From: Magnetococcales bacterium WMHbinv6
GTDB lineage: Bacteria > Pseudomonadota > Magnetococcia > Magnetococcales > Magnetaquicoccaceae
Reading direction: 5' to 3'
Length of the DNA stretch: 44,881 nt
Assembly (NCBI GenBank): GCA_002753135.1
Contig: PDZV01000035.1
Span: forward strand, 1-44,881
A model generated the notes under the pieces. That model saw only the letters and a program-made list of their open reading frames with translations, was not told the DNA's origin and did not search any database. The position numbers and the translations under genes are program-made. Below, in pieces: positions 2,405 through 39,314 of the stretch (positions within the stretch are counted from its first letter, which is position 1; each line of letters begins with the position of its first letter).

Positions 2405-3964
2405 ATGGAAATTTTTGTTCTATTGGTCGGTATACTGGTCGGCGCGGGCGGCGTGCTGGCCTTCAATTTACAGCAGCGCAAAGTGCGGGAAAATCTCTTT
2501 GCACAAAAAGAGGAGCAGATCCAACATCTTATTCGCAGCGCCGAAGAAAAAGCAGCCGCCGCCAATCGGGAAATTGAACTGACCATGCAGGCCGAACGGC
2601 TGCGGGTCCAGGAAGAGGTGGAAAACAAGTTCAAAGAGCAGGATCGGGAGCTGGAGCGGCAAAAACGGCGTCTGGACAAACGGGAAGAACAACTCGACCG
2701 CAAATTCGACCATCTGGACCAGCGGGAGAGCGAGCAGGAAAAACGCCGCCTGCTGTTGGAAGAGGAGAAAAAACACCAGGAAAACGCTGCCCTGAAGCTG
2801 CAGGAAAGCCTGCACGAGGCGCAGAAACGGCTGGAAGAGATTGCCCGCCTGTCGGAAGAGGAGGCCAAACGGCAATTGTTGGCTGGCTTTGAAGAGTCGG
2901 CCCGCCGGGAGTCGGCCCGCCTGTTCAAGCAGTTGGAAGAGGAGGTCAAAGAGCGGGCCAACCACACCGCCCAGGAGGTGATTGCCACCGCCATTCAGCG
3001 CCATGCCAGCGAATTTGTCGCCGAAAAAACCGTCTCGGTGGTGCCGTTGCCCTCCGAGGAGATGAAAGGACGGATTATCGGTCGTGAAGGGCGCAACATT
3101 CGTGCCCTGGAGGCGGCCACCGGCTGTGATCTGATCATCGACGATACGCCGGAAGCGGTGGTCATTTCCGGTTTCAATCCGGTGCGCCGTCAGGTGGCCC
3201 GCCTGGCGTTGGAAGAGTTGATCGCCGACGGACGCATTCACCCGGCCCGCATTGAAGCAGTGGTACGCAAGGCAAGCAAAACCATCGAGCAAGAGATTCG
3301 CGAGGCGGGCAAACAGGCCATTTTTGATGTCGGCCTCAACGAAGTGGCCCCGGAGATCGTGCGCCTGCTCGGCACCCTGAAATATCGCACCTCTTACACC
3401 CAGAATGTGTTGGCCCATTCGGTGGATGTGGCCTTTTTTGCCGGTATCATGGCCGATGAACTGGGGCTGGATGGCAATCTGGCCCGCCGTTGCGGCCTGT
3501 TGCACGACATCGGCAAAGCCCTGGACCATGAAATTCAGGGCTCGCATGCGGTGATTGGCGGCCAGTTTGCCAAAAAGTATAAAGAGCATCCCACGGTGGT
3601 CAACGCCATCTGGTCGCACCATTTCGAGATTGATCCCACCTCGGTCTACGGTCCGCTGACCAACGCCGCCGATGCCCTGTCGGCAGCCCGTCCGGGGGCG
3701 CGTCGGGAAAATATGGAGACCTACATCAAACGTCTGGAGAGTCTGGAACAGATTGCCAACCAGTTTGATGGCGTCGACAAATGTTTTGCCGTGCAGGCCG
3801 GGCGTGAGTTGCGGGTGATCGTCAGCTATGACCGGGTGCAGGACGAAGGGGCGATGATGCTGGCCCGGGAGATTGCCCAGCGGGTGGAAAACGAACTGAC
3901 CTATCCGGGCCAGATCAAAGTGACCGTCATCCGCGAGATGCGGGTGACGGAGATTGCCCACTGA
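2405..3964 (+). CDS. rny: Ribonuclease Y
   Basis: RNase Y is a membrane-anchored endoribonuclease that starts mRNA decay. The 519-aa protein has one N-terminal membrane helix (residues about 2-20), a long charged coiled coil (about 30-200), a KH RNA-binding domain with [15 protein letters not shown], and an HD domain containing [22 protein letters not shown] and WSHH, the metal-binding His/Asp residues. The length matches the family. It starts 39 bases after the cyclo-ligase stop and is probably cotranscribed with it. RNase Y is less usual than RNase E in well-studied proteobacteria, which is a taxonomic hint. Confidence 0.96.
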
Positions 3965-3977
3965 CAAGGAAACCACC

Positions 3978-4739
3978 ATGGATGCCCCCCTCCCCTCCCC
4001 GGAAGTACCGGTTCCCGCTGGTGAAGTGGCCAAACGGACGCTGCATTTTTTCTGGCTGGCCGACTGTTCCGGTTCGATGACCGGCGCCAAGATGGCCACC
4101 CTCAACCAATCGATCCGTGAAGTGTTGCCGGAAATTGAAGAGGTGGTCAAAGATCATCCGCAGGTGCGGGTGGAGATGCGGGCCATCCGTTTTGCCAGCC
4201 AGGCCGAATGGCATGTCGGACCGGCCCCCTTGCCCTTGGGCAGTTTCAGCTGGCCTGACCTGCGCCCGGAAGGGGCGACAGCCACGTCGCAGGCCCTGCG
4301 CCTGCTGGCCCGGCAGCTGGCAATCAGCAACATGCCGGAACGGGGGCTGCCCCCGGTCTGTATTTTAATCTCCGACGGCTTCTGCACCGACAGCGCCGAG
4401 GAGTACGAACGGGCCATCCTGGAGCTGGACACCCTGCCCTGGGGGATGAAGGCGGTGCGCCTGGCCATTGCCATCGGCGATGAGAGCCACTATGACGAAC
4501 AGGAACTGCTCAAGTTTGTTTCACCTGGGTTGCGCAAAGAGGTTGGCATTCTCAAAGCACACAACAAAAGTGATCTGCTCAACCATATCAAATGGGCCAG
4601 CACCGCCGCGGTGCGCTCCTCCTCCAAAAGTTATGTGGATGAGTCGGTGCGTGGTACCAGCTCCAATCGTCTGCAGACCAACGTGGTCATGGGTCCGCCC
4701 CCGGCCCCGCAAATTACGGACAGCTCGGATGTTTTCTGA
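3978..4739 (+). CDS. TerY-like von Willebrand factor A domain protein
   Basis: This is a 253-aa soluble vWA protein. The metal-ion-dependent adhesion site begins with D29-x-S31-x-S33 (LADCSGSM), and later elements GATATSQAL and ILISDGFCTD supply the other MIDAS residues. TerY-type proteins are thought to scaffold or sense metal in stress pathways, and they recur beside a PP2C phosphatase and a zinc-ribbon kinase (the TerY-P triad), both of which are present at 6692 and 7558. ATG 3978 follows AAGGAAA; the in-frame ATG 3954 overlaps rny and is less likely. The last 40 residues are a flexible Ser/Pro-rich tail. Confidence 0.85.
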   Translation: MDAPLPSPEVPVPAGEVAKRTLHFFWLADCSGSMTGAKMATLNQSIREVLPEIEEVVKDHPQVRVEMRAIRFASQAEWHVGPAPLPLGSFSWPDLRPEGATATSQALRLLARQLAISNMPERGLPPVCILISDGFCTDSAEEYERAILELDTLPWGMKAVRLAIAIGDESHYDEQELLKFVSPGLRKEVGILKAHNKSDLLNHIKWASTAAVRSSSKSYVDESVRGTSSNRLQTNVVMGPPPAPQITDSSDVF

Positions 4740-4773
4740 AATTTTTCCCCGGCATATCCCATCGCCCTTGCTT

Positions 4774-4816
4774 GCCAGGCAGCCCTCCTCGCTGCTTGGC
4801 TGCTGATTTTTTTTTT
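4774..4816 (+). terminator. Rho-independent terminator after the vWA gene
   Basis: Arms GCCAGGCAGC (4774-4783) and GCTGCTTGGC (4791-4800) pair with one G-T wobble around a 7-base loop. A run of ten T (4807-4816) follows after six bases. It would separate the rny/vWA transcript from the chemoreceptor. Confidence 0.65.
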
Positions 4817-4919
4817 GCGATACAGCAGACATTCACGTATACTCTCTGCGGTGCAGCATTGCAGAAAATAAATTGATTTATCGCAAATATAACCCGTTTA
4901 CCGAGAAGAGGATCGTGAC

Positions 4920-6632
4920 ATGCAGTGGCTCAAGGATGTGCAAATCGGTCATCGTTTACTGGCCTCATTTTTGGTTTTTTCCGTATTGATGGCCATCGTC
5001 GGCTGGGTTGGCATCAGCAACATGGGTGCCATCGATGCGGCGGATACCATTTTGTACGAACGGGAACTGAAAGGGGTCAGTATTGTCAAGGAGACCAATA
5101 TCGATGCCCTGGGTATCGTGCGGGCCCAGTTGAATCTGCTCTTGAGCAAGGATGAAGAACAAAAAAGAGGATATGCCAAGCAGGTCGCCGACGGTCACGC
5201 CAAATTGCAACAGGATCTGATTGAAGTAAAAGCAAAATTTTATACCGATCGGGGCAAAGCTCTGGTCGCCAAACTGGAGGCCGCCTACGCTGAATGGAAA
5301 CCGCTGCAGGAGGAGGTGGTCAAGCTGGCCATGGCTGGTGAGATGGAAAAAGCCGTCGCTCTCTCTTCCGGCAAAGCTCGCGACAGCTTGCGTAGCCTGG
5401 ACACGACTCTCGACGAATTGGCCAAGCTCAAGGAAGAGGTGGCCAAAAAAGCCTCGGATGACAACACGCTGCTCTATGAGAGCAGCCGCACGTTGATGAT
5501 CGGCCTGATTCTTGGCTCTGTGGCGCTGGGTCTGTTCATGGGCTGGGGCATCTCGCGCTCCATCGTGGTTCCGTTGACTGAGGGTGTCCGTTTGGCAGAG
5601 GCTTTATCTGCCGGGGATCTGACCAAATCCATTCAGGTCAACAGCCAGGATGAAGTGGGGCAACTGGCCAAAGCGATGAACAACATGGCAGGAAAGCTGC
5701 GGGAAGTAATCGGTGATGTCTCGACAGCGTCCGAACAGGTCTCCATCGGCAGCAACGAAATTTCCGACGCCGCACAAAATCTCTCCCAGGGGGCCACCGA
5801 ACAGGCCGCCTCGATTGAAGAGACCTCCTCGGCCATGGAAGAGATGTCCTCCAACATTGCGCAAAACTCCGACAATGCCGGCATGACGCAAAATATTGCC
5901 CAGAAGGCGGCCAAAGATGCGGAAGAAGGCGGCGCGGCGGTGGGCGAAGCGGTGCAGGCGATGAAGGAGATTGCCTCCAAGATCGGCATCATCGAAGAGA
6001 TTGCCCGGCAGACCAACCTGCTGGCCTTGAATGCGGCCATTGAGGCGGCCCGGGCCGGTGAGCATGGCAAGGGGTTTGCGGTGGTGGCTGCCGAGGTGCG
6101 CAAGCTGGCCGAACGGAGCCAGACGGCAGCCGGTGAAATCAGCCACCTCTCCGCTTCAAGCGTCGAAGTGGCCGAAAAAGCAGGCGGCATCATCAACAAG
6201 CTGGTGCCGGACATTCAGCGCACCGCCGAATTGATCCAGGAGATCAACGCCTCCAGCCAGGAACAGAATCAGGGAGCGGGTCAGATCAATCAGGCGATTC
6301 AGCAGCTGGACCAGGTGATTCAGCGCAACGCCGGCGCTTCGGAAGAGATGGCCGCCACGGCAGAAGAGTTAAGCGCCCAGGCCGATTTGATGTCGCAATC
6401 GATCGCCTTCTTCAACCTGGGACAAGGCACCCGCACGGTTCGCCATGCCCCCGCCCGGGCAGCAGTTGCCAAAGCACCGGCCAGCAAAGGCAAAGCAACG
6501 GTCAAAGCGTTGCCAGCGGCTCCCCGTCCAGCCGCGAAAAGTTCCGCCCCAGCCATTGCCCATAAACCGGCTGCCAGCAAGGGGGCTGTGTTGGACATGA
6601 GGGTGGATGACAAAGATTTTGAGAAATTTTAG
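4920..6632 (+). CDS. Methyl-accepting chemotaxis protein
   Basis: This is a 570-aa transmembrane chemoreceptor. The order is a membrane helix (about 13-32), a helical periplasmic domain of the 4HB_MCP type (about 33-190), a second membrane helix (about 192-212), HAMP (about 213-265) and a cytoplasmic signalling coiled coil. The hairpin tip [22 protein letters not shown] contacts CheA and CheW. After an Ala/Pro/Lys-rich linker the protein ends in DFEKF, which fits the aromatic-x-x-aromatic form of the CheR/CheB-docking pentapeptide (NWETF in E. coli). It lies between the vWA gene and the PP2C/kinase genes, all on the same strand, which is unusual for a TerY-P locus. The ligand is unknown. Confidence 0.95.
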
Positions 6633-6640
6633 TCGCTCTC

Positions 6641-6672
6641 TGCGCCTGTCCGCTTTGCCCCGGACAGGCGCA
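6641..6672 (+). terminator. Strong hairpin after the chemoreceptor gene
   Basis: A perfect 12-bp inverted repeat (6641-6652 and 6661-6672, TGCGCCTGTCCG and its complement) encloses an 8-base loop nine bases after the chemoreceptor stop. No T-run follows, so it may stabilise the mRNA or attenuate rather than terminate. The PP2C gene starts 20 bases later. Confidence 0.45.
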
Positions 6673-6691
6673 ACGGCATAGGGCTGAATGA

Positions 6692-7555
6692 ATGATGGAC
6701 TCCCCCCTGCACCACCCTTTGCCACCCTATGGCACGCTGTTGGGGGCATGGCGTACCGGTGCCGCCCATCGACGACGCCAGCAGCCCTGCCAGGATGCTG
6801 CCCTGTGGCAGTGGCAAGAGACGGCGACAGGCACGCATCTGTTGTTGGCCGTGGCCGACGGTCATGGCGGCAGCCACTATGATCGCAGCGAACAGGGAGC
6901 CCGACTGGCGGTGGTGGAGGGGCTGCGCCTGTTAAGCGAATGGCTGCAGGCCTTTTCCCATCCGAGCCAGTTGCTCAACAGTTGGCGCAGTGATTTTGCC
7001 CGTTTTCTGCAGCGGCGCTGGCGTGCAGCGGTGTTGCAGCACCATGCGCAACAGGCCAATGAGGAAGAGCCTGCTGCAGAAAATCCCCATGATCCAGAGG
7101 ATCCAACCGCCATTGTCCGCCGTTACGGAGCCACCTTGCTGGTGGTTTTGGTGCAGGCGGATCGGATCTATGCCGGGCAGATCGGTGATGGCAAACTGCT
7201 GCGCATTCCCCAGGGTGGTCCCCCCTGTGAACCCCTCCCCGCCGATCCGGCTCTGCTCGGCAGTGAAACCCACTCCCTCTGTTCCGAAGCGGTCGACAAA
7301 TTGTGGCAGAGTGCCACCTGGCAGCGTCAGGACGACGAGACGCTGCTGTTCTGCACCGACGGCCTTTCCGACTCGTTTGCCGGCCCGGAGGAGTTTTATC
7401 GTTTTGCCGAAAGTTTACCGCTGCTGCTGCAGGAGCGTGGCAGCGAAACCATCGCCCGCCATCTGCCCGAATGGCTGGATCGCTATTCCGAAGAGGGCAG
7501 CGGCGATGACATGACTTTGTTATTGTTACATCCAACGCTTGATGCGGGAGTTTGA
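6692..7555 (+). CDS. PP2C-family protein serine/threonine phosphatase
   Basis: This 287-aa soluble phosphatase has the PP2C metal-binding motifs in order: ADGHGG (D56, G57), the IGDGKLLRI core, CTDGLSDSF and GDDMTLLLL near the C-terminus. It would dephosphorylate Ser/Thr residues with Mn or Mg, and the obvious opposing enzyme is the kinase whose ATG lies just beyond its stop codon. ATG 6692 or ATG 6695 is the start, with AGGG about nine bases before. With the vWA protein at 3978 it matches two parts of the TerY-P triad. An Arg/Glu-rich insert around residues 120-145 is probably a disordered loop. Confidence 0.9.
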   Translation: MMDSPLHHPLPPYGTLLGAWRTGAAHRRRQQPCQDAALWQWQETATGTHLLLAVADGHGGSHYDRSEQGARLAVVEGLRLLSEWLQAFSHPSQLLNSWRSDFARFLQRRWRAAVLQHHAQQANEEEPAAENPHDPEDPTAIVRRYGATLLVVLVQADRIYAGQIGDGKLLRIPQGGPPCEPLPADPALLGSETHSLCSEAVDKLWQSATWQRQDDETLLFCTDGLSDSFAGPEEFYRFAESLPLLLQERGSETIARHLPEWLDRYSEEGSGDDMTLLLLHPTLDAGV

Positions 7556-7557
7556 GC

Positions 7558-8886
7558 ATGGCCCTGGCCAACGGTCATACCCTATTGTCCACCGAGTTGC
7601 AGCTGCCGCTGCGGATCGGCAAAAAGCTGGCCGAAGGGGGCCAGGGAGAGATCTATCAGGTCAGCGCGGCGGGTCGCAGCTATGCCCTGAAATGGTACCA
7701 TCCGGCACAGGCAACCGCCGAACAGAAAGGGGCCATCGCCGCCCTGGTCAAACACGGTCCCCCCAAAGGCAAAGCGGGCAGCCGTTTTTTGTGGCCGATC
7801 GATCTGGTGGAAGAGAGCAAAAGCGGTGCCTTCGGCTATGTGATGCCCCTGCTGGACAGCAGCCGTTTTGCCACCCTTGGGCAGGTGCAGGCGCACCGCA
7901 AAGCCGCCCCCGGTTACGGCAGCATGTGCCGCATCTCCTTTCAGGCGGCCAGCAGCTACAAGCAGTTGCACATGGCCGGTTATTGCTACCGGGATATTTC
8001 CCGCAACAATCTGCTCTTTGATCCGCACAGCGGCGATATTGTCATCTGCGACAACGATAACGTCGGCATCAGCAACCAGTCGGCCTGTCAGGTGCTGGGC
8101 ACCATGGAGAATATGCCCCCGGAGTTGATTCTCAACCGGGCGGTCCCCTCGACGCAGAGTGATCTGCACGCTTTGTCGGTGCTGCTCTTTGAGCTGTGGA
8201 TCTGGCACCATCCGCTGCACGGACTCAAGGAGTATCAGGTACGCTCCTGGGATCTGCCCGCCAAAATTCGCATCTACGGCGAAGAGCCGCTGTTTGTCTT
8301 TGACCCGGAAAACGACAGCAACCGCCTGCCGGAAGATCCAGAGTATCAAACGGCCCGCCGTCGCTGGCAACAGTGCCCGCCTTCGGTACAAGAGCTGTTT
8401 CTGAAAGCCTTTACGGTCGGCCTGCAGCAACCGCAACAGCGGGTGACCGAAGGACAATGGCAGCGCACTTTTTTGCGCCTGCAGGACAGCATGCTCTCCT
8501 GCCCCGCCTGCCGCGCCGAAAATTTCAGCCCCCCTGCTGGCAACACCCCTGCCGACTGCTGGCACTGCCGGAGCAGACTGGTACTGCCGCCTCGCCTGCT
8601 GGTCAAACATGCCCGTGGCAGCCATGCCTTCACCCTGTTGTTGGGCAAATCGCTCTCCACCCTCTTCTGCCACCCGGAAGAGGAAGAAAAAGCCCGCCTT
8701 TTCGGTGAGGTCAACCAACACCCCAACAACGCGCAGATTTGGGGTATCCGCAATCTGACCGAGCAGAGCTGGTCGATTCGCCTGCCGGATGGCAGCCGCA
8801 AAGAGGTGCCTCCGCAACGATCTGCGCCCCTGACCATCGGGTTGGAACTTGACTTTATCGGCTTAAACGGCCAAATTGTCTCCTGA
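7558..8886 (+). CDS. Protein kinase with zinc ribbon, TerY-P type
   Basis: This is a 442-aa cytoplasmic Ser/Thr protein kinase. Visible elements are the glycine loop EGGQGEIY, catalytic K45 (YALKWY), the catalytic loop YRDISRNN (D146, N151) and a metal-binding D165 in CDND in place of DFG. A zinc ribbon follows with two CxxC pairs (C315/C318 and C334/C337), then a beta-rich FHA-like tail of about 100 residues. A kinase plus zinc ribbon beside PP2C and vWA is the TerY-P triad described from comparative genomics; substrates are unknown. ATG 7558 with GGGAG at 7546-7550 is the start, three bases after the PP2C stop, so the two are probably coupled. Confidence 0.9.
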   Translation: MALANGHTLLSTELQLPLRIGKKLAEGGQGEIYQVSAAGRSYALKWYHPAQATAEQKGAIAALVKHGPPKGKAGSRFLWPIDLVEESKSGAFGYVMPLLDSSRFATLGQVQAHRKAAPGYGSMCRISFQAASSYKQLHMAGYCYRDISRNNLLFDPHSGDIVICDNDNVGISNQSACQVLGTMENMPPELILNRAVPSTQSDLHALSVLLFELWIWHHPLHGLKEYQVRSWDLPAKIRIYGEEPLFVFDPENDSNRLPEDPEYQTARRRWQQCPPSVQELFLKAFTVGLQQPQQRVTEGQWQRTFLRLQDSMLSCPACRAENFSPPAGNTPADCWHCRSRLVLPPRLLVKHARGSHAFTLLLGKSLSTLFCHPEEEEKARLFGEVNQHPNNAQIWGIRNLTEQSWSIRLPDGSRKEVPPQRSAPLTIGLELDFIGLNGQIVS

Positions 8887-8980: not shown

Positions 8981-10078
8981 ATGGCGGTTTTTAATGAAAT
9001 GCTTCGTGTTCGGCTGCAAGAGTTGCTGCACAATCATGGCCGAACCTTGTTGCAGGAGCCGCGTCGTCTGGAGGCGTTATTACGCGATTTGAGCGACGGA
9101 CAAAGCGGATCAGATCTGCACCTGTTGATGCAGGGGTTGAAAACCGGTATACCAGCGCAGTTAAGCGACGATCTGGAGCGGGGCTTGCCGCTCGGCAGTA
9201 TTTTGCCCCGCCTGGTGCAACGACTGGAAGAGGCGCATATTGCCCCCAAGGCGGCGCAATGGTGTGTGGACAGCTGGTGTCTGGCCCTGGGCCATGAACC
9301 GCCACCACCGCCAGAGGCCTCCCCGCAACGCAAAACACCCGTGGATGAGCGCTATCCGATCCATCCCGAACCGCTGCCAGCAGAGCGGAGCTGGCAGGAT
9401 CCGCTGTTGGCGATGGCTTTTGTCTGGGTTCCGGCGGGCACCTTTTTGATGGGCGATCTTTTTGAAGAGGGAGGAGCCGACGAACAACCGGTGCATGAGG
9501 TGACCTTGAACGGTTTTTGGCTGGGCAAATATACGGTCACGCAGGGCCAATGGCAGCAGGTGATGGGCAACAATCCCTCGCACCGTGCCCGGGGCGACAA
9601 CCATCCGGTCGATCAGGTCTCCTGGGAAGATGTGCAGCTGTTTATCAGCAAATTCAATGAAATGAGTAAAGAGCGTTATCGTCTGCCCAGCGAAGCGGAG
9701 TGGGAGTATGCCTGCCGTTCCGGCGGCTACGAGCAACGGTATGCCGGAGGCGATAACGCCGACTCTGTCGCCTGGTTTGCCGACAACAGCCGGGAGAGCA
9801 GCCATCCGGTCGGCCAGAAGAGCGCCAACGGTTTGGGCCTGCACGATATGTCCGGCAATGTCTGGGAGTGGTGCGAAGATTGGTACGATGACATGGCCTA
9901 TGCCAAAGCCGGGGCGCGGGTCAGCAATCCGCTGCGCCGCAACGAAGCCAGCGGTGATCATGTGTTGCGCGGCGGCTCGTGGAGCGATCAGGCCAAATAT
10001 GTGCGTGCCTCCTATCGCGATTGGGGGCGGCGTGATTATCGCGGTTATGATTATGGCTTCCGCCTGGTACGCCTCTGA
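8981..10078 (+). CDS. SUMF1/FGE-sulfatase-fold protein with helical N-terminal module
   Basis: This 365-aa protein has two parts. Residues 1 to about 105 form a helical module (LLQEPRRLEALLRDL, LKTGIPAQL, AQWCVDSWCLALG) that I have seen attached to various signalling domains. Residues about 140-365 form a SUMF1 domain: GTFLMG, VTQGQWQQVMG, RLPSEAEWEYA, DMSGNVWEWCEDW, LRGGSW and GFRLVRL. True formylglycine-generating enzymes carry a catalytic Cys pair after RGGSW, and this protein does not, so sulfatase activation is unlikely. It follows the kinase by 95 bases on the same strand and is a candidate substrate or effector of the TerY-P module. Paralogues lie at 38407 and 42567. Confidence 0.88.
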   Translation: MAVFNEMLRVRLQELLHNHGRTLLQEPRRLEALLRDLSDGQSGSDLHLLMQGLKTGIPAQLSDDLERGLPLGSILPRLVQRLEEAHIAPKAAQWCVDSWCLALGHEPPPPPEASPQRKTPVDERYPIHPEPLPAERSWQDPLLAMAFVWVPAGTFLMGDLFEEGGADEQPVHEVTLNGFWLGKYTVTQGQWQQVMGNNPSHRARGDNHPVDQVSWEDVQLFISKFNEMSKERYRLPSEAEWEYACRSGGYEQRYAGGDNADSVAWFADNSRESSHPVGQKSANGLGLHDMSGNVWEWCEDWYDDMAYAKAGARVSNPLRRNEASGDHVLRGGSWSDQAKYVRASYRDWGRRDYRGYDYGFRLVRL

Positions 10079-10119
10079 GTTGGCGGAAAATTTTTTTTGC
10101 ACCGGCGGCTGTGTGCGCC

Positions 10120-10779
10120 ATGCTTGACCCGGCAGAGAGCCGCCCTTGGCGGCAACAGATGATTGAACGCCAGTTGCTGGCACGAGGGGTCAGCAACCGG
10201 GCGGTGTTGCAGGCCATGCAAGAGATACCCCGGGAGCTGTTTGCGGTCAATCTGCCGCTGGAGTTGGTTTATCGTGATGGGCCGTTGCCGATCGGGCAAG
10301 GGCAAACCATCTCGCAGCCCTTCATGGTGGCAGTGATGGCGGCACTGCTGGCCCTGCCCGCCGAGGGCAAGGTCTTGGAAATCGGGGCCGGTTCCGGCTA
10401 CGGTGCGGCGGTACTCTCCCGTCTGGCCCGGCAGGTGGTCGCCGTGGAACGGCTGCCCGAACTGTTGCTACAGGCCGAAAAGCGCTGGCAGCAGTTGGGC
10501 CTGCACACGATTCACCCTGTACTGGCCGACGGCTCCATCGGTTGCCCGGAACAGGCACCGTTTGACGGCATTGTGGTCACCGCCGCAGCCCCGGCCATAC
10601 CGCCGTCGTTACTGCAGCAGTTGCGGCCCGACAGCGGGCGACTGGTCGTGCCAGTCGGTGGCCGCGCCGAACAGATTTTGCAGGTGGTCAGCCGCGATGC
10701 GGCGGGCCGTATCACGGTGAGCGATCAATTCGCTTGCCGCTTTGTCCCTTTGTTGGGCCGGGAAGGGTGGCCTTGCTGA
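10120..10779 (+). CDS. pcm: Protein-L-isoaspartate O-methyltransferase
   Basis: PCMT methylates isoaspartyl residues with S-adenosylmethionine and so starts repair of damaged proteins. The 219-aa product shows the family N-terminus (MIERQLLARGVSNRAVLQAMQEIPRELF), GQTISQPFMVA, the SAM-binding motif EIGAGSGYGAAVL, VVAVERLPEL and the late DGIVVTAAAP and LVVPVG motifs. Length is typical. ATG 10120 and GTG 10111 are both possible starts; there is no good ribosome-binding site for either. mfd follows 39 bases downstream. Confidence 0.95.
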   Translation: MLDPAESRPWRQQMIERQLLARGVSNRAVLQAMQEIPRELFAVNLPLELVYRDGPLPIGQGQTISQPFMVAVMAALLALPAEGKVLEIGAGSGYGAAVLSRLARQVVAVERLPELLLQAEKRWQQLGLHTIHPVLADGSIGCPEQAPFDGIVVTAAAPAIPPSLLQQLRPDSGRLVVPVGGRAEQILQVVSRDAAGRITVSDQFACRFVPLLGREGWPC

Positions 10780-14915: not shown

Positions 14916-15084
14916 GATGAACAGAATATCCTCTTTCTCGTCGTAGTCGATATTCATAACCTCTCCTCCATACAGGCATGGTTGGTCATCTTCGGGTTGG
15001 TGAGCTTCATAGAAGCCCTATTGGGGGTGAAGGAGTCCCCTTTTTCCCGCCGTCGCGGTAGGCCGGGCATTCGTTCGCGGGTTG

Positions 15085-15351
15085 TCAGGCCAGCAATGCT
15101 TCTGGATGACGTTCAGCGATACGCAGCAGGGAGGCCGCCGGACCGGATGGCTTGCGCCGCCCTTGTTCCCACTCCTGGACGGTCCGCACACTCACCCCCA
15201 GGATGCCAGCGAAAGAAGATTGGGAAAGCGCCATCCTGTCCCGAATCTCTTTGACATCACCCGGAATCTGCACGGTGACTCGCCGTCCCTGGCCCGCCTT
15301 GATCGCCTGCACACTTTCGAGAAGCTCTTGCCCAATGTCGCGTTTGTTCAT
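15085..15351 (-). CDS. XRE-family antitoxin / DNA-binding protein (HigA-like)
   Basis: This 88-aa protein has a helix-turn-helix of the XRE/lambda-Cro type in its second half (MALSQSSFAGILGVSVRTVQEWEQGRRKPSG). The first half (DIGQELLESVQAIKAG) resembles antitoxins of the HigA/RelB-associated kind. Its ATG overlaps the stop of the toxin gene (ATGA at 15351-15348), the order toxin then antitoxin being typical of higBA. It would bind the toxin and repress its own operon. No operator was identified because the promoter must lie upstream of the toxin or of the integrase. Confidence 0.85.
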   Translation of the reverse strand: MNKRDIGQELLESVQAIKAGQGRRVTVQIPGDVKEIRDRMALSQSSFAGILGVSVRTVQEWEQGRRKPSGPAASLLRIAERHPEALLA

Positions 15352-15677
15352 AGCCCGTCAATCTCCTCTTTCAGTTGTCGCAAAACAGCCGCAGTCATAT
15401 TTTCCGTTTCGTTCTTGGCGTAGATGGTCAGCAACCAGATTTCCCCCTGCCGGGTGCGCCAGTAGTAAATTACCCGCACACCCCCGCGCTTTCCTCGCCC
15501 TGCAACACACCATCTCAGCTTGCGCACACCGCCACTGCCGGGAATCACAACACCCGTTTCTGGATGCAACGCCAAAGACCACTGCATGGCCGCATACTCG
15601 GCATCGTCCAGATAGTCATGAATCAGCCTGGAAAATGCCGGTGCCTCAATAAAGGTGATCTCTGTACTATACGTCAT
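15348..15677 (-). CDS. RelE/HigB-type toxin
   Basis: This 109-aa protein has the HigB2/RelE-like pattern: ITFIEAPAFSRLI at the N-terminus, GSGGVRKLRW, RGKRGGVRVIYYW (the central beta-strand with basic residues) and IWLLTIYAKNE followed by a C-terminal helix. Such toxins cut mRNA on the ribosome. The start at 15677 (MTYSTEIT) is preferred to 15695 because family members begin just before the first strand. The pair lies within the island and probably stabilises it. The toxin looks intact. Confidence 0.85.
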   Translation of the reverse strand: MTYSTEITFIEAPAFSRLIHDYLDDAEYAAMQWSLALHPETGVVIPGSGGVRKLRWCVAGRGKRGGVRVIYYWRTRQGEIWLLTIYAKNETENMTAAVLRQLKEEIDGL

Positions 15678-15701
15678 TGACGGAATGCCCTGCAAAAGAA
15701 A

Positions 15702-16616
15702 TCATGCCATCACCCGCAACGGCACCACGTTGGTTTCCGGTTGTCCGGTCACAATCGCTTCCAACCGCCTGCCCCAGGCATCCAGAGCAAGGCGCTTTTC
15801 CGCATCGTAACTGTGCCGATCATAGACCGCCGTTATGCCCTGCTCTACATGGTTCAGGATCTTGGAGACCACCAGCCTGGAAACGCCCATGCCGGTCATC
15901 AGACTGGCTGCTGTGCGCCGCAGATCGTGCGGGGTGAACTGCTCCACACCCAACACGGCCAGATTCTTTCTCAGTGCATGGTCAACGCTGGTTTGCCCCA
16001 CATGCCGCCCAGGTATCCGGGAGGGAAACAGCCAGGGAGAGTCACCGGAAAGCGCCTTGATTCGTTCCAGTATGCTCAACGCCTGGCTGGAAAGCGGGAT
16101 ACGGTGCGCCATTTTGTTTTTTGAGGACTCAACAGGGAGGGTCCACCATCCACCCACCAGGTCAAAATCAGCCCAACTGGCGGTCACCACCTCTCCCTTT
16201 CGAGTGGCGGTGAGAAATTGCAGCTTCAGAGCCAGACGGGTTCCCTCACTCATGCCCGCCTGATCCAGACCGTTCCAGAAGGCGCGCATCTCCTCCAGCG
16301 TCAACACCCGGTCCCGTTGTCGTTCAGCGACAGGGGCTTGCACTCCCAGGCAAGGCGACACGTCGACCACTCCACGCGACACAGCAAAATTGAACATCTT
16401 GCGTACACAGGCCAGGGTCCGGTTGGCGGTGGTTGTTGCCCCCCGGTCCTGCATTTCGTCCAGCATTTTGACCACGTCATGCCGGGTGATCTCTTTGGCT
16501 TTTCGCCTGCCCCAGCGTGGCAGCACATCCTTTTGCAACATGCGTTGATCTTCCGGCCAGGTTCGTTTGCGTGGCTTGGCCCACCGTTCAAGGTATTCCT
16601 CCACCACCCGTACCAT
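15702..16616 (-). pseudogene. 5'-truncated tyrosine recombinase (integrase)
   Basis: About 304 residues of a phage/island integrase remain. The core-binding domain begins at once (VVEEYLERWAKPRKRTW), and the catalytic domain keeps R (LTATRKGE), K (SSKNKMAHRI), HDLRRTA, NHVEQG and the nucleophile Tyr in AVYDRHSY. The N-terminal arm-type DNA-binding domain of about 90 residues is missing; in its place lies the 3' end of the ATPase gene. An ATG one base after the ATPase stop (16616-16614) could still allow translation. The catalytic core could be active but would lack arm-site binding. The integrase adjoins tRNA-Thr, as expected for a tRNA-targeting island. Confidence 0.8.
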
Positions 16617-16617
16617 C

Positions 16618-17703
16618 TCAAGGTCTCCCGCCCAGCACATTGCGTTTCCATAGCTCACCCATGGCATACTCTTGCAACCACCCCTCCAGTTCGCTCCTTT
16701 CAAAGCGCCGAAAGATGGAAGCCCCATTTTCTTGATCCACCACGATGACCTCCTCAGGTTCCAATTCATTGACCAATTCGACCGACTGTGTGGAAACGAT
16801 CAATTGGCGCGATTCGGCTACCTGCTGGAAAATATCGGCCAGAACGGAGATGGCGTAAGGGTGCAAACCCAGTTCCGGTTCATCAATCAGAACGGTATCA
16901 GGCAATAGTTCGACGGGTTGCAACAACAGAGTTGCCAGACAAATAAAGCGCAATGTCCCATCAGAAAGGACATGCGCTTTGAACGGGGTGTCGGGACTCC
17001 CTTTTTGGCTCCACTCCAATTCGATGGTTTCAGGCTCCTCTGGACGGTGGACAAAATCTCCAAAAAAAGGGGCCACCAGACGAATGGTTGCGACGATTCT
17101 CTGATAGGATTCTGGATGTTTCTGGTACAACATTCTGAGATAGGCGGCCAGATTGGCGGCATCCTCTTTCAAGCGCAGATTGTCATTGCTGAGATGGCGT
17201 TGTTTAACCCTGGCTTTCTCGCCGGTATCGTGGAAGTGATAAACGCGCCATTTTTTTACTGAATCGCGAACATACGGAGAGTATTTATCACTCGCCTCCT
17301 TCAATTTTGATTCGGCATGACCAGTTCCAAGAAGAGCTGGATGAGGAGTGGTAGAATAATACATACCCTTGAATCGGCTTGATTCTTGTTTGAATACCAA
17401 GCGATTATCTGATGTTGGCACCAAATCAAAATCGTATCCGTTATGCCCAAAATGAAATTCAGCATGCAATCGTTCCGTCTGTTCTCTTCCAAAATACAAA
17501 ATAGCGTCTGGTCCTCCCTGCTTCTGAACATATAGTTGGAATTGTTGCTCATACATCTCATTGAGCATGCGGAACATACTGATAAAATTACTCTTGCCAG
17601 CACCATTGGCACCAATCAATACGTTCAAGCTTCGCAAAGAGAGATTTTTTAACTCCCTGATGGACTTGAAACCAATGATGGAAAGTTCGTCTACATGGGA
17701 CAT
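16618..17703 (-). CDS. AAA-family ATPase (AAA_21 / OLD-like SMC-type)
   Basis: This is a 361-aa protein with an ABC/SMC-like ATPase head. Walker A is GANGAGKSNF (about 31-40), followed by a signature region (HVLSDGTLRFICLATLL), Walker B VLIDEPELGLHP and a late switch STQSVELVNEL. Proteins of this type, often next to a DUF4276 or other small partner gene, occur in phage-defence and mobile islands. No intact partner remains: the next frame is an integrase fragment. It begins with ATG 17703 just downstream of the HsdS fragment. Function is unknown; defence is inference from family and setting. Confidence 0.85.
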   Translation of the reverse strand: MSHVDELSIIGFKSIRELKNLSLRSLNVLIGANGAGKSNFISMFRMLNEMYEQQFQLYVQKQGGPDAILYFGREQTERLHAEFHFGHNGYDFDLVPTSDNRLVFKQESSRFKGMYYSTTPHPALLGTGHAESKLKEASDKYSPYVRDSVKKWRVYHFHDTGEKARVKQRHLSNDNLRLKEDAANLAAYLRMLYQKHPESYQRIVATIRLVAPFFGDFVHRPEEPETIELEWSQKGSPDTPFKAHVLSDGTLRFICLATLLLQPVELLPDTVLIDEPELGLHPYAISVLADIFQQVAESRQLIVSTQSVELVNELEPEEVIVVDQENGASIFRRFERSELEGWLQEYAMGELWKRNVLGGRP

Positions 17704-17734
17704 GGTTAGCTTGTCCAGAATTCATGAAATATAT

Positions 17735-17911
17735 TCATAGTATTTTCTCCACTATTTTTTCCGCCTCACGCAGCCGGATTTGACCGGAAATCAACATAGG
17801 CAGGAGCAGATCACGGAGTTGGGTGCCGGATTCACGTTTATTTGCCTCTACCTCACCGGCACGATCCAGCAATTTTTCCACCCTGGCCATCACCGCGTCT
17901 TCGATCAGGTA
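17735..17911 (-). pseudogene. C-terminal fragment of a type I restriction specificity subunit (HsdS)
   Basis: The last 58 residues of this frame read MARVEKLLDRAGEVEANKR then TQLRDLLLPMLISGQIRLREAEKIVE, which is the conserved C-terminal helix and tail of HsdS proteins (LRDxLLPKLISGEL). No target-recognition domain, HsdM or HsdR is present. The frame is fused in-line to an IS630 fragment. It is the remnant of a lost restriction-modification locus. Confidence 0.7.
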
Positions 17912-18016
17912 TTCTGCCATATTCAACCAACTGCCGTGTTTCGGCGTGTAATGGATCTCAAGACGATCCAGTATCCTGCGTGCCACCTCATCAAAAATTG
18001 TTGAGTACCAAACCAA
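17912..18016 (-). pseudogene. IS630-family transposase fragment fused to HsdS fragment
   Basis: Residues DEVARRILDRLEIHYTPKHG followed by SWLNMAE match the C-terminal DDE region of IS630 transposases, where the final catalytic Glu is in this motif. Only about 35 codons remain, with no upstream catalytic Asp, and the frame runs directly into the HsdS tail. Not functional. Confidence 0.75.
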
Positions 18017-18144
18017 ATGGACCCCCCTGCGGGATAGACAGCGGATTGCCCACGAATGATACAGGATTGGACTGTCGGAAACCAGGAATCTCTGACAGAT
18101 CCACTGGTGGAATGGAGTTCATAATTTCTATTTTTTCAATAGGT
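18017..18144 (-). other. Unassigned open frames between mobile-element fragments
   Basis: Two minus-strand frames are open here. One reads MNSIPPVDLSEIPGF and continues to IPQGGPFGLV before a stop at about 18000; the other continues upstream from the IS630 fragment. Neither resembles a family I recognise. The stretch is AT-rich toward 18120-18150 and probably is another gene scrap. Confidence 0.3.
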
Positions 18145-18240
18145 TTAGAAAATTTCACCAAGCTTCTGGCTCCACAAATTCAGGGCATCGCGTTTCTTTT
18201 GGGTATAGGAATACCGGTCATAGACATCTGTCACTCGCGG
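18145..18240 (-). pseudogene. C-terminal tail of a second tyrosine recombinase
   Basis: The frame reads VTDVYDRYSYTQKKRDALNL then WSQKLGEIF and stops at TAA (18147-18145). It aligns with the tail of the island integrase at 15702 (AVYDRHSYDAEKRLALDAWGRRLEAI), including the nucleophile Tyr, but is clearly divergent. About 30 residues remain, joined to an IS1182 fragment upstream. It shows that a second, different integrase once resided here. Confidence 0.6.
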
Positions 18241-18515
18241 AGTTGCTCTTTGTTGGCTTCAGTCTCTTTCTTTGGTCTGCCCAACGTCTTGCCACCAAAG
18301 CGGATTCCCTTGTCTTGGCAATAACGCCGATTTTCTCGTGTTCCGTAAATGCCATCCGCCAGAACCACTGCCGGATAGTGACCATGCCGTTTCTTGAATG
18401 CTTCCACTTGCCCCATGCCACCGGTGTCTGCATCGGCAACATGTAATGCAGTCGTTTTACCCACAGCCCGCCAACAAGCATGGTGATTGACAATGGCAAC
18501 GGAAAAAATCAACAA
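18235..18515 (-). pseudogene. IS1182/IS5-type transposase fragment
   Basis: The frame contains QVEAFKKRHGHYPAVVLADG, IYGTRENRRYCQDKGIRF and GKTLGRPKKE, the middle part of IS1182-group transposases, including the second catalytic Asp region. It ends by frameshift and junction into the integrase tail; the N-terminal part (MLIFSVAIVNHHACWRAVGK) is degraded. Both ends of the transposase are missing and no terminal inverted repeat was found. Confidence 0.7.
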
Positions 18516-18574
18516 CGGGACTGTCCGGTGCCGATCAATCCCGTTCGGATCTGTCCAGTCAGGAGGAAGCTGTC

Positions 18575-18759: not shown

Positions 18760-18808
18760 CATGACAAATTGGTCTATGACGATTGAAAGGAATCAAGGAG
18801 AGTTCGTC

Positions 18809-19117
18809 ATGTCCGGGAGTATATCTGCGCAACAGTCAGAGGGAGGGCTGTTGATTTGTGTGCAGGGGCGGTTTAATTGCGAAATGCACCTGCCCTTTCG
18901 TGCCACCTATGAAGGTAAACTGAGCCACAAGCAAGAGATCGTCGTCGATCTTGCCGCAACGGAATATATCGATTCGGCAGCCCTTGGCATGCTGCTGCAT
19001 CTTCGTGAGCAGGCCAACACCCATGAATCTTCCGTCCACCTCATCCATGTGCCGCCGGACGTGCGCCATATTTTGGAAGCCTCCCACTTTCAGCGCCTGT
19101 TTAAAATCTCCTCTTGA
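18809..19117 (+). CDS. STAS-domain protein (anti-sigma factor antagonist type)
   Basis: This 102-aa single-domain protein has the STAS fold: VQGRFNCEMH, EIVVDLAATEYIDSAALGMLLHL and a final HLIHVPPDVRHILEASHFQRLFKI. Ser56 in IDSAALG occupies the region where anti-sigma antagonists are phosphorylated. In partner-switching pathways a kinase phosphorylates this Ser and a SpoIIE phosphatase removes the phosphate; a SpoIIE protein lies at 33051, but no HATPase anti-sigma kinase is in the window. ATG 18809 follows AAGGAG. The CULT gene starts four bases after its stop, so they are cotranscribed. Confidence 0.9.
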   Translation: MSGSISAQQSEGGLLICVQGRFNCEMHLPFRATYEGKLSHKQEIVVDLAATEYIDSAALGMLLHLREQANTHESSVHLIHVPPDVRHILEASHFQRLFKISS

Positions 19118-19121
19118 TAAA

Positions 19122-19550
19122 ATGCGGTTGTCCGATACACGGTGCAAAGTCAACTTGCCGGGGGAGTTGAGCCGCTTCGCTGATTTTGCTTCGCTGCGCG
19201 ATGTCAGCCTGCAGGAGACGCAAAAAAAGGGCGAACAGTGGCTCTACTGCGCCCAATGTCAGACAAAAATTGCCCAAACCGCCCATCGCCTGCCGATCAA
19301 CGGCCAGGAGATCTACACCTTTGCCAACCCACATGGCTACGTTTTTCTGATCGGCTGTTTCCACAGCGCCAGCAACTGCAGCGGCGTCGGACCGATCAGC
19401 AAAGCCTTCAGCTGGTTTCCCGGCACCGCCTGGCAGATGCTCCATTGCAACTTGTGCCACTGCCACCTGGGCTGGCTCTACCGACACAACGACGGCAGCC
19501 ACTTTTACGGTCTGATCCTGGCCCGCTTAACGGAGAACCCCTCCCCCTGA
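19122..19550 (+). CDS. CULT-domain (cereblon-like) protein
   Basis: The 142-aa protein resembles the thalidomide-binding CULT domain of cereblon and the single-domain bacterial homologue MsCI4 of Magnetospirillum. It has two zinc CxxC pairs (C43/C46 and C109/C112), the segment FANPHGYVF, and three Trp at expected positions: W98 in SWFPG, W104 and W118 in LGWLY. In cereblon, three Trp form the cage for glutarimide or uracil-like ligands. The protein ends HFYGLILARL, as in the family. It probably binds a small cyclic-imide or pyrimidine-like ligand; the natural ligand in bacteria is not established. Its pairing with a STAS gene suggests signalling. No signal peptide is seen. Confidence 0.87.
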   Translation: MRLSDTRCKVNLPGELSRFADFASLRDVSLQETQKKGEQWLYCAQCQTKIAQTAHRLPINGQEIYTFANPHGYVFLIGCFHSASNCSGVGPISKAFSWFPGTAWQMLHCNLCHCHLGWLYRHNDGSHFYGLILARLTENPSP

Positions 19551-19603: not shown

Positions 19604-20608
19604 TCAATGCTGGGTAAAGGTGGTGGTCATCAGACGGTTGCGTCCCGCCTCTTTGGCCCGATAGAGCTGTTGATCGGCCTGCTTGATCATATCCTCCACC
19701 AGCCAGGCCTCTTGCGGTACCAGACTGATCCCTCCCAGGCTGAGGGTGACATGTTTGGCCACTTTGGAATGGTCATGCGGCAGATACAGAGCCCGCACCG
19801 CTGCCTGCAGGCGGTTGCCAACCTGCAACAGGCCGTCGCCGGGGGTTCCCGGCAAAACACAGACAAACTCTTCGCCACCGTAACGGGCGACCAGATCAGC
19901 CGAGCGGGGCAAGGCGCTGGCCAAACTTTGTGCCACCTGCTTCAGACAATGATCTCCCGCCGTATGACCGTAGTGATCATTGAAAGGTTTAAAATAGTCA
20001 ATATCCATCAAAATCAAAGACATCCACTCATGCCCCCGCCGGGATCGATTCCACTCCTGCTGCACGAAATCGTCAAAGCGACGCCGGTTGGCAATGCCGG
20101 TCAAACCATCGACCATGGCCATGTTTTTCAGGGTCATGTTCAGGGAACGCAGCTGTTCATTCTGATCGGCCAGACGACTGTTGAGCAGATGCAACTCCGC
20201 ATTCAACTGCCGCTCGCGCAGCAAACCACGCCGCAAAGTGAGATGAGTCCGCACCCGGGCCTGAACGATGGGTGGTGAAATCGGTTTGGTAAGATAATCC
20301 ACCGCCCCCAGAGCAAAGCCACGGGCCTCATCCTCCACATTGTTCATCGCAGTGACAAAAATGACCGGAATATCAGCGGTGAACGGGTTGGCCTTCAAAT
20401 GGCGCAACACCTGATAGCCGTCCATATCCGGCATCATGATATCCAGCAGAATCAAATCAGGCGGCATGCTCGATTGCGCCCGCTGCAGAGCCTGTTTGCC
20501 ATTTTTGGCCAACAAAATCTCATAGTCCGGCTCCAACAGCTCGGTCAACACGTTCAGGTTGAACCGCTCATCGTCAACGATCAATAATGTGCTTTTTTGC
20601 CCGTCCAT
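19604..20608 (-). CDS. Response regulator with GGDEF domain (diguanylate cyclase)
   Basis: This 334-aa protein has a receiver domain (residues 1 to about 125; acidic VDDE, phospho-acceptor D56 in LLDIMMPDMDG, conserved Lys in YLTKPI), a short coiled linker and a GGDEF domain. The active-site motif is GGEEF, and an inhibitory RxxD (RSAD) lies five residues before it, so product feedback is likely. It should make cyclic di-GMP when phosphorylated. ATG 20608 is preferred because GGGGA lies eight bases upstream; in-frame alternatives are 20617 and TTG 20623. It follows the sensor kinase by 25 bases and is the likely output of that kinase via the HPt protein at 22892. Confidence 0.93.
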   Translation of the reverse strand: MDGQKSTLLIVDDERFNLNVLTELLEPDYEILLAKNGKQALQRAQSSMPPDLILLDIMMPDMDGYQVLRHLKANPFTADIPVIFVTAMNNVEDEARGFALGAVDYLTKPISPPIVQARVRTHLTLRRGLLRERQLNAELHLLNSRLADQNEQLRSLNMTLKNMAMVDGLTGIANRRRFDDFVQQEWNRSRRGHEWMSLILMDIDYFKPFNDHYGHTAGDHCLKQVAQSLASALPRSADLVARYGGEEFVCVLPGTPGDGLLQVGNRLQAAVRALYLPHDHSKVAKHVTLSLGGISLVPQEAWLVEDMIKQADQQLYRAKEAGRNRLMTTTFTQH

Positions 20609-20633
20609 TTGAATCATCCCCAACAGTCATCCG

Positions 20634-22685
20634 TCACTCCAAGGACAAATGCAACGCGGCAGCCATCTGCCGTAATGTTTCCAGCGCCTCTTCATACTCA
20701 TATTCATCGATCAGTGCAGCGATGCGGGTCAAAGCAGGCAACTCCACATCCCCGCAGCGCTGGCGAAGCGTCGCCAGGCGGGAAGCGGCCTTGGTATTGC
20801 CCGCCTCCAGCAGTTGCCATAACTCCTGCAACAGCGGCAGCAACAACTGCCAATCCACGGCGCAGAACTGGCCGATCTCCTCTTCCTGCCGATCATTTTC
20901 TTGCAAAACAGGTGTCAATTGCAATACATTCTGTGATACCGACAACATGAAGGGGCTCTCTGCTTCCGCATGTACCGTAAAATCAATGTGAATTAAAAAG
21001 CGGGAACCAACCCCCTCCTCGCTGCTGACCGTCAAAACACCCCCCATCCGTTCCAACAACGGTTTGCAGATGGCCAGGCCCAGGCCGGTACCTCCGTAAC
21101 GACGGGTTGAAGAGCCGTCACCCTGGGTAAACGGTTGAAACAGACGGGCCAGCAGATCGTTGTCCATACCGATGCCGCTGTCCCAGATCACAAATTGCAG
21201 TTGTACCTGATCTCCCCGCCGCTGCAACGCCTCCACCTCCAGCCCGGCCTGACCATGCTCGGTAAACTTGACAGCATTGTTGAGCAAATGGTTCAACACC
21301 TGCCCCAAACGCAACGGATCACCGATCAGTGTCCGTGGCACCTCAGCCCCCACCGTCAAACGCAAACCCAACCCTTTTTCCTGCGCTTTAAGCTGATAGC
21401 GGGTAAAGAGGGGGGCCAAGAGATCATCCAACTGAAACGGCACCGCCTGTAGCTCCACTCCACCGGACTCCAGACGGGAAAAATCAAGAATATTATTGAT
21501 TAAATTTAATAATGATTGGGAAGAAACCTCCATTTTGCGCAAATAATCCCGCTGCGCATCGTCAACCTGCGTCTGCAGCAACAAATGGGTCATACCCATG
21601 ATGGCGTTCATCGGCGTGCGCAATTCGTGGCTCATGTTGGCCAAAAATTCACTTTTCATGCGGTTGGCCTGCTCTGCCGTGCTTCTGGCCACCTGCAACG
21701 CCTGTTCGATGGATTTGTGGGCGGTCAAATCGGTCATCATACCGACAAATTGCCGCTCTTGTCCGATACCGATTTCACTGACTGCCAAATCCACCACCAC
21801 CAACGAACCGTCCCGACGCCGGGCGGTTACCTCTCGTCCTTTGCCGACAATGCGCCCTTCTCCGCTGCTCAAATAGTTCTGCAAATAGCGATCATGGGCC
21901 TCCCGATCCGGTGAGGGCATCAACAGGGAGACATTCTGGCCCACCACCTCCGCCGCCGTATAACCGAACAAGCGCTCCGCCGCCGGGTTGAAAAGCTGGA
22001 CAATACCGTGAATATCGATGGCGATGATCGTGTTGACCGATTTCTCGACGATGGCCCGTATGGTCGCCTCGCTGCGCCGCAACCGTTCCTCTGCCACCTT
22101 GCGTTCGCTGATGTCGGTAATGATGCCGACAAACAGCCCCTGCTCTCCCAACTGCATGCGACTGATGCGCAACTCAATCGGAAACACATGTCCATCGGCA
22201 TGCAAGCCAACCACCTCAACGGCCTGGCCAATCACCCGTGCGGTACCACTTTGCAAAAAGCGCTGCATCCCCTGCCTATGGGTTGCCCGGTAGGCCTCCG
22301 GCATCAAAACAGTAACCGAACACCCCAACAGGGCTGCGCGCTGATAGCCGAACATGCGCTCGGCAGCCGGATTGATCGATTGAATGGTACCCTGTTCATC
22401 AATGGTCAGCAGACCATCCACCGCCGTTTCGACGATTGCCCGTTGCAGTTCGCTCAACCAGGCCTGTTGCCCGTGCGAATGGTGCAGCGCTCTTTCACCC
22501 TGTTGCAGTTGCGCTTCATACCCGGCATAACTTTCTGAAACCTGCCTCAAGAGCATGCCGATTCCCTGCAACAAGGCGCGCTCAACGCTGGCACTGGCAC
22601 CGCCTTCACCCTGCAGCCATTGCGCGACCTCCTCGCTGTTTGCAGCCAGAATCTGTTCCAACTGCTGCCGTAATCGCTGGTGCAT
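20634..22685 (-). CDS. PAS-PAS sensor histidine kinase
   Basis: This is a 683-aa soluble kinase. An N-terminal helical region (1 to about 85) is followed by two PAS domains ([20 protein letters not shown] and [19 protein letters not shown], each ending in a PAC-like ITDISER / MTDLTAH motif), HisKA with H in [16 protein letters not shown], and HATPase with DSGIGM and [10 protein letters not shown] helical C-terminal domain of about 100 residues, like the tails of hybrid kinases, follows, but no receiver domain is present. No membrane helix is visible, so it senses an internal signal. Start ATG 22685 has GGGGAG at the right distance; upstream ATGs at 22709 and 22718 are possible. Confidence 0.92.
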
Positions 22686-22805
22686 CCTGCTCTCCCCAAG
22701 CAACCTCATCTTGTCCATTGTACCGATTGGGAGAGTAATCTTCTTTGCCCAACCTTTCAATCCATCCCGACCATGACAAACACAATATATCGGCAACAAT
22801 CAAAC

Positions 22806-22834
22806 TTGACAAAAATTGAATATCAAGCAATAAT
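22806..22834 (+). promoter_or_regulatory. Candidate sigma-70 promoter for the HPt gene
   Basis: TTGACA (22806-22811) is followed after 17 bases by AATAAT (22829-22834), five of six matches to the consensus -10. It lies about 60 bases before the HPt start codon, in the AT-rich divergent region between the kinase and HPt genes. Confidence 0.55.
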
Positions 22835-22891
22835 GGAAAACCAAGAACACAATCCTGCAAATTTTGCTTTATTGCTCAAAAGGAGCGCACC

Positions 22892-23278
22892 ATGTGTCAA
22901 GAGGGGGTAGAGATGATCAACCTGGAGGCGTTGCAGCGGTTGCGTCAGGATACCGGTACGGGCTTTGAGAGAGTGTTGGCACTGTTTCTGAAAAATATTC
23001 CCATCCGTCTGCTTACTCTGGAGGAGGCGTGGCGCAATCAGGATCGTCTGCTGCTGCGCCAGACTGCCCACAAATTGAAAGGCACCTCGGCAACTTTCTG
23101 TGCCGAACCCTTTTCGCAACTCTGTGCCCAATTGGAAAAAAGCGCCGATGCCGCCTCCGATCCAGAAATTGCCTCACTTCTGGAACAAATTCAGCAACAA
23201 GGAGAACAGGTTAAAGAGAGACTGCAAAGGCTGTTACTGCAGAGCTTGACCGGAGAGCAAAGATCTCTCCACTTATAA
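22892..23278 (+). CDS. HPt domain phosphotransfer protein
   Basis: The 128-aa protein is a four-helix HPt module. The phospho-acceptor His60 lies in TAHKLKGTS, preceded by the typical FLKNIPIRLLTLEEAWRN helix and followed by the C-terminal coiled helices. ATG 22892 has AGGAG at 22881-22885. It is divergent from the PAS-PAS kinase, which lacks a receiver and HPt, so a link kinase to HPt to REC-GGDEF is inference from proximity. A separate receiver would be needed between kinase and HPt in a standard relay, and none is seen nearby. The last 20 residues are a charged tail. Confidence 0.9.
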   Translation: MCQEGVEMINLEALQRLRQDTGTGFERVLALFLKNIPIRLLTLEEAWRNQDRLLLRQTAHKLKGTSATFCAEPFSQLCAQLEKSADAASDPEIASLLEQIQQQGEQVKERLQRLLLQSLTGEQRSLHL

Positions 23279-38406: not shown

Positions 38407-39162
38407 CTAGCGCACCATCACCAGTCGCAGACCAACATTGCTGAACTGGCTGTCCGGGGCCAGATTGAAACGGTAGGCGGAACGGATCCGACCTTCGGCA
38501 TTATTCCAACTGCCACCCCGCAAGACCCGCGTACTCCCTTCTTTCGGCCCCGAGGGATCCAATACCGGCGAGTCGTCATAGTAACGGGCACCGTAATAAT
38601 CCTGGCACCACTCATGCACATTGCCCAGCATGTCGTGCAACCCCCAACCGTTTGGCTTCAACCGTCCGACGCTGCGCACGCTCTTGACCCCGTTTTCCGG
38701 ACCGCCACACCAGGCATACTGGGCAATCTCCTCTGCCCCATCTCCCCAATGACGGTTGGTGACCGTAGCAGCACGCGCCGCATACTCCCACTCCGCCTCG
38801 CTGGGCAAACGATAGGACTGGCATTTTTCCAGCTCATTCAAGGCCTGAACAAAGGCTTGCGCATCCTCCCAACTGATCCGCTCCACCGGCAAGGTGCGCC
38901 CTTTGGCCGCGCTGGGATTGCTGCCCATCACCGTCACCCATTGCTGCTGTGTGACCGGATATTTACCCAGCAAAAAGGGTTTGCTGATGGTGACCGTATG
39001 TTGTGGCAACTCATCACCCGCCGCCATGCCATCAAAATGGAGATCGGCACCCATCAAAAACGATCCAGCAGCAATCGGCACAAACTCCATGCCGATACTG
39101 TTGGTAAAAGGTTTATTCATCTCAGCCGGTTTGACATTTCCCATCGGCGTTTTTGCTCGCAT
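38407..39162 (-). CDS. SUMF1/FGE-sulfatase-fold protein (second)
   Basis: This 251-aa protein is a single SUMF1 domain with SFLMG, VTQQQWVTVMG, RISWEDAQAFVQAL, RLPSEAEWEYAARA, GLHDMLGNVHEWCQDYY and LRGGSWNN. The catalytic Cys after RGGS of true FGE is absent (RGGSWNNAEGRIRSAY), so another ligand-binding or iron-dependent role is likely. ATG 39162 has GAGGAG about ten bases before. The last gene in a minus-strand group Sel1, DUF3467, CheX, SUMF1. No signal peptide. Confidence 0.85.
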   Translation of the reverse strand: MRAKTPMGNVKPAEMNKPFTNSIGMEFVPIAAGSFLMGADLHFDGMAAGDELPQHTVTISKPFLLGKYPVTQQQWVTVMGSNPSAAKGRTLPVERISWEDAQAFVQALNELEKCQSYRLPSEAEWEYAARAATVTNRHWGDGAEEIAQYAWCGGPENGVKSVRSVGRLKPNGWGLHDMLGNVHEWCQDYYGARYYDDSPVLDPSGPKEGSTRVLRGGSWNNAEGRIRSAYRFNLAPDSQFSNVGLRLVMVR

Positions 39163-39314
39163 GATCCATCTTCTCCTCTGTCCAATCGCGGAAAATTTTG
39201 TCTCACACCTGCCTGCCACTCTTTTCATCGCTGGCAAACAGGCTTCAATCCAGAAAGCAAAACAACATCAACAACCTGTTAATATAATCGTCTTACGACT
39301 TTATCAACAGTTTG

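Follow-up and report, generated by a model that had tools for sequence, protein, structure and literature searches.

The closest described relative of the protein studied here is MsCI4 (MGR_0879, 'cereblon isoform 4', PDB 4V2Y and others), which binds uracil and uridine (PMC4287342) and whose deoxyuridine complex is a solved structure (4v31, also among our Foldseek matches). Human cereblon recognizes C-terminal cyclic imides (PMC11974815). In 2015, the CULT domain was reported mainly from delta-proteobacteria, together with a few alpha- and gammaproteobacteria and one spirochete (PMC4287342). Bacterial CULT proteins serve as cereblon stand-ins in drug design. Here, we analyzed a CULT gene that directly follows a STAS gene in a stretch of 44,881 nucleotides (hereafter the window; contig PDZV01000035.1) from the genome of Magnetococcales bacterium WMHbinv6.

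The CULT-domain protein of 142 aa is encoded on the plus strand at 19122..19550 (ATG at 19122, stop at 19550), with core residues at about 37–141. Its translation carries two CxxC pairs at the right spacing as zinc ligands (C43/C46 and C109/C112) and the cage tryptophans W98, W104, and W118, all of them invariant when 19 CULT proteins of the Magnetococcales are aligned; the frame is open and intact, and each of the 16 residues invariant in that alignment is kept. Among solved structures, phmmer retrieved MsCI4 of Magnetospirillum gryphiswaldense with E = 1.9e-17 and the cereblon CULT domain at about 1e-13, well outside what chance would give. The initial annotation had placed a 142-aa CULT protein at this position, with both CxxC pairs and the three tryptophans, and its coordinates and residues proved correct. 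Pfam returned no CULT model and NCBIfam nothing for this protein; the closest Pfam family was Yippee-Mis18 (PF03226) with 18 bits versus a gathering cut-off of 26.6, and membership in Yippee/Mis18 was rejected on account of this score. Pfam likewise gave no match to a LON domain within the 142 aa, which thus comprise CULT only, without the DDB1-binding region, arguing against cereblon proper, the E3 ligase substrate receptor. Judged by sequence and model, the product is a genuine bacterial CULT relative with an intact Trp cage.

An AlphaFold2 model, for which 19 members of the order served as input, reached an overall pLDDT of 83.6, with the core mostly at about 90 or more and the N-terminal 36 residues poorly modelled. 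The CULT-type beta-tent fold is present in this predicted model of the window protein. MsCI4 structures ranked first (Foldseek, VIA-align; 6r0q with Z 18.8 and an rmsd of 1.8 over 105 residues), such that the structural match to CULT anticipated in the initial annotation was found; the Foldseek TM (target) for 5amj was 0.90, and the cereblon CULT domain followed next in the ranking with Z about 17. Structural alignment to the MsCI4 structure 5amh (36% identity, offset of 19 residues) equates W98/W104/W118 with MsCI4 W79/W85/W99, and N69, F96, and Y120 with MsCI4 N50, F77, and Y101. Human cereblon has a His at the position of F96.

When 61 genomes were searched, 20 proved to carry a CULT gene, among them that of the window, and all 20 belong to one order, the Magnetococcales; in the phylum, 21 of 398 genomes gave a match, the 21st being marginal and containing stops. 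Scanning of genome contigs for CULT with the single protein gave no matches. A second CULT-like place in the window genome, at C56, is weak (E 0.03) and has two stops. A degenerate DNA pattern built on the spacing of the cage and zinc residues matched 20/20 known CULT loci and retrieved at least 118 CULT loci, from Desulfobacterota, Gamma- and Alphaproteobacteria, Myxococcota, Spirochaetota, Acidobacteriota, Ignavibacteriota, Nitrospirota, Verrucomicrobiota, and others; several residues are fixed by the pattern, so that their invariance among pattern-found loci is not independent evidence. The survey set comprised 135 distinct CULT loci, drawn from the Magnetococcales and some ten phyla, a range well past the mostly delta-proteobacterial set of 2015 (PMC4287342). 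In the CULT tree, the window protein clusters with two same-genus copies (SH-aLRT 84–86) on a long branch of 1.15 changes per site versus 0.13 and 0.35 in these copies. Tests for a viral or plasmid origin gave no matches.

The preceding gene (18809..19117, plus strand; coding 18809–19114, TGA 19115–19117) encodes a STAS domain protein of 102 aa of the anti-sigma-factor-antagonist type. It exceeds both Pfam cut-offs (STAS_2 PF13466, 1.8e-13, 50.9 bits; STAS PF01740, 8.8e-12, 45.2 bits), remains under the NCBIfam ant_ant_sig cut-off, and carries a putative phospho-serine, S56, in the stretch IDSAALG that fits the DSxALG motif. No cognate kinase or phosphatase gene adjacent to it was evident from Pfam; genes of this sort are located at C57 and at other places in the genome. 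Its start is preceded by the Shine-Dalgarno sequence AAGGAGAG (18795..18802, plus strand) with a strong duplex energy of -8.5 kcal/mol. The CULT start follows after a junction of four bases (19118..19121, plus strand), as the initial annotation had noted, and here the duplex energy is +0.6 kcal/mol (random median -2.5), the strong Shine-Dalgarno sequence of STAS and the lack of one at CULT lending additional support to the argument from spacing. No terminator-like site was detected in our scan between or just after the two genes, and a promoter scan added nothing. As the STAS gene has a strong Shine-Dalgarno sequence and the CULT gene has none, re-initiation at CULT after the STAS stop is likely; co-transcription with probable translational coupling agrees with the four-base gap and the missing ribosome site. 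The coupled start is evidence for a common transcript rather than for a common function.

Conservation of the STAS–CULT pair was assessed with a STAS profile search, which recovered 29 of 30 Pfam STAS loci in a control; at least 330 bases of flank were covered upstream in 128 and downstream in 125 of the 134 other CULT loci. Within this set the window alone was positive, with a STAS gene beside CULT at 0/134 other distinct loci. This negative is based on the profile search and not on the Pfam STAS listing, although among the Pfam STAS matches listed for the 19 other CULT-bearing Magnetococcales genomes none lay beside CULT either, the next-closest being 30 kb away (G007:C56). Of the two same-genus genomes that carry the closest CULT genes, one has CULT after a thioredoxin gene (G003), the other between opposite-strand genes (G004). 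STAS is a multi-copy family, with 5–29 Pfam matches per genome among the matches listed for the 20 CULT-bearing Magnetococcales genomes. The window genome's canonical STAS, at C57, is 50% identical to the window STAS and adjoins a fused REC-SpoIIE-HATPase protein that is HsbR-like (PP2C-HATPase regulator). Since the pairing was found in the window genome alone, a signalling pathway is left without comparative support. Hence, of the STAS link drawn in the initial annotation, co-transcription and likely coupling (four-base gap, no ribosome site) can be retained, but its proposal that the operon reveals the role of CULT, ligand binding feeding a partner-switching or stress signal, is not supported: the pair was present in no other genome examined, the outcome that the initial annotation had itself named as refuting.

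Upstream of the STAS gene, the region back to mfd (14982..18560, from the ORF list) is filled with mobile-element debris, namely an HTH/RelE-like pair, an integrase, an AAA ATPase, and IS630 and other transposase fragments. The AAA ATPase was assigned by Pfam, the integrase and HTH/RelE labels stem from reading of the translations, and the IS630 remnant (NCBIfam, E=1.5e-4) is under its cut-off. On the other side, outside the STAS–CULT pair, Pfam identifies a module of a REC-GGDEF cyclase (minus strand), a PAS-PAS histidine kinase (minus strand), and an Hpt protein (plus strand) at 19604..23278. Elsewhere in the window, a vWA-like protein, a PP2C phosphatase, and a protein kinase are clustered at 3954–8886, resembling the TerY-phosphatase-kinase triad; three formylglycine-generating-enzyme-like (SUMF1) proteins were recognized in the translations over the 45 kb (8981–10078, 38407–39237, and 42567–43301); and a polyphosphate kinase 2-like ORF at 41673–42422 terminates in an abnormal C-terminal part, perhaps owing to a frameshift. 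A pcm-like gene at 10111–10779, labelled from its translation, would act on isoaspartate damage. As a damage-theme partner of CULT it is tempting, but it lies 8 kb off with mfd and the mobile debris in between, and was discarded.

Taken together, we consider it probable that the window protein is a free-standing CULT reader of the MsCI4 type that has come to lie secondarily behind an orphan STAS paralog, the latter serving a network elsewhere. The placement would have followed a rearrangement of this stretch, where mobile-element remnants abound, CULT now probably being translated by coupling to STAS; and the STAS protein would more likely belong to the partner-switch network of the genome, with its canonical members elsewhere, than to a CULT-specific pathway. 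Two points count against this reading: the long branch means that the ligand or partner of CULT may have shifted, and selection within a single lineage could account for how tightly CULT is coupled to STAS. If STAS and CULT instead formed a true two-gene signalling unit, ligand-bound CULT would bind STAS and alter its phosphorylation or partner, resulting in a partner switch. The four-base gap without a Shine-Dalgarno sequence before CULT, the retained S56 phospho-site motif, and the presence of partner-switch genes in the genome would fit such a unit, and a change of partner could account for the long CULT branch; yet the pair is found in no other genome examined, the nearest relatives keep CULT without STAS, and no anti-sigma kinase adjoins the pair, leaving us to regard this possibility as quite improbable. 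A wiring of CULT to the STAS switch in this one lineage, in which capturing a ligand in the Trp cage would gate the partner of STAS, appears very improbable to us; if true, it would equip a cereblon-like sensor of bacteria with an output into signalling.

It is also conceivable, but unlikely, that the STAS protein works with the neighbouring cyclase, histidine kinase, and Hpt protein (19604–23278) in a manner resembling HsbA and HsbD of the Pseudomonas aeruginosa HptB cascade, with CULT as a bystander. In P. aeruginosa, the anti-anti-sigma factor HsbA interacts with the diguanylate cyclase HsbD (PMC5085249); in the window, STAS, cyclase, kinase, and Hpt all fall inside 4.5 kb, and the canonical STAS of the genome has the HsbR-like neighbour. 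However, the same-genus genome G006 conserves the cyclase (83%) and the kinase (65%) with neither STAS nor CULT within 1.4 kb beyond the cyclase, the STAS and cyclase genes are convergent and do not form one operon, and HsbD is a membrane cyclase whereas that of the window is of the REC-GGDEF type. Membership of STAS in the cyclase-kinase-Hpt module was not supported by the synteny test in G006. Finally, the long CULT branch and the upstream mobile-element debris might be taken as signs of a CULT gene decaying after rearrangement, its junction with STAS having no function, but the intact open frame, the retention of all order-invariant residues, and the confidently predicted fold render this highly doubtful.

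Neighbours of CULT differ from clade to clade. Genes around the other loci were called with a simple home-made caller, and the Pfam neighbour counts cover the 25 most frequent families, so that single STAS matches could escape them, the reason for using the STAS profile search. Directly upstream of CULT, CobA-HemD (uroporphyrinogen-III methyltransferase/HemD) was found at 11 Desulfobulbales-type loci (L081, L085, L096, L098, L101, L122, L143, L164, L174, L177, and L183), overlapping or at a distance of no more than 50 bases and fused where whole; this neighbour is better conserved than STAS. A HAD-type hydrolase gene lies downstream of CULT at nine gammaproteobacterial loci (L080, L090, L107, L108, L113, L160, L173, L187, and L190), at several of which a 6-pyruvoyl/carboxy-tetrahydropterin synthase-like gene comes next. 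Five Magnetococcales loci (L026, L028, L037, L038, and L041) have a conserved rhodanese gene downstream, and BatD is upstream of CULT in one genus; no neighbour shared across these clades was found. Clade-specific neighbours such as CobA-HemD and HAD are better leads to the job of CULT than STAS, whose link does not reveal it.

As to the ligand, the small zinc beta-tent of CULT would bind a flat cyclic imide-like group in its three-Trp cage. By analogy with MsCI4 and cereblon, from which we carry over the ligand class, the window protein probably reads uracil-type or cyclic-imide groups, and would most likely serve inside the cell to read uracil/uridine or cyclic imides, among them those left at the C-termini of damaged proteins. 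Compared with the known systems, the window STAS resembles HsbA-type anti-sigma factor antagonists in its domain and in the DSxALG serine at position 56, but differs from them in having no adjoining kinase/phosphatase partner and in scoring under the ant_ant_sig cut-off. The thalidomide-binding domain of eukaryotic cereblon has the fold and cage of the window CULT (Z about 17, 31–34% identity), whereas the LON domain and the DDB1-binding part are peculiar to cereblon in this comparison. Closest is MsCI4, likewise a single-domain bacterial CULT protein (Z about 18.5), from which the window CULT differs by the location of its gene behind a STAS gene and by an N-terminal extension of ~36 residues, predicted with low confidence and in length partly shared with the MsCI4 N-terminus. 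The zinc cysteines, the W cage, and the equivalents of N50/F77/Y101 are common to both. With the window protein, the family gains a further member whose cage is intact.
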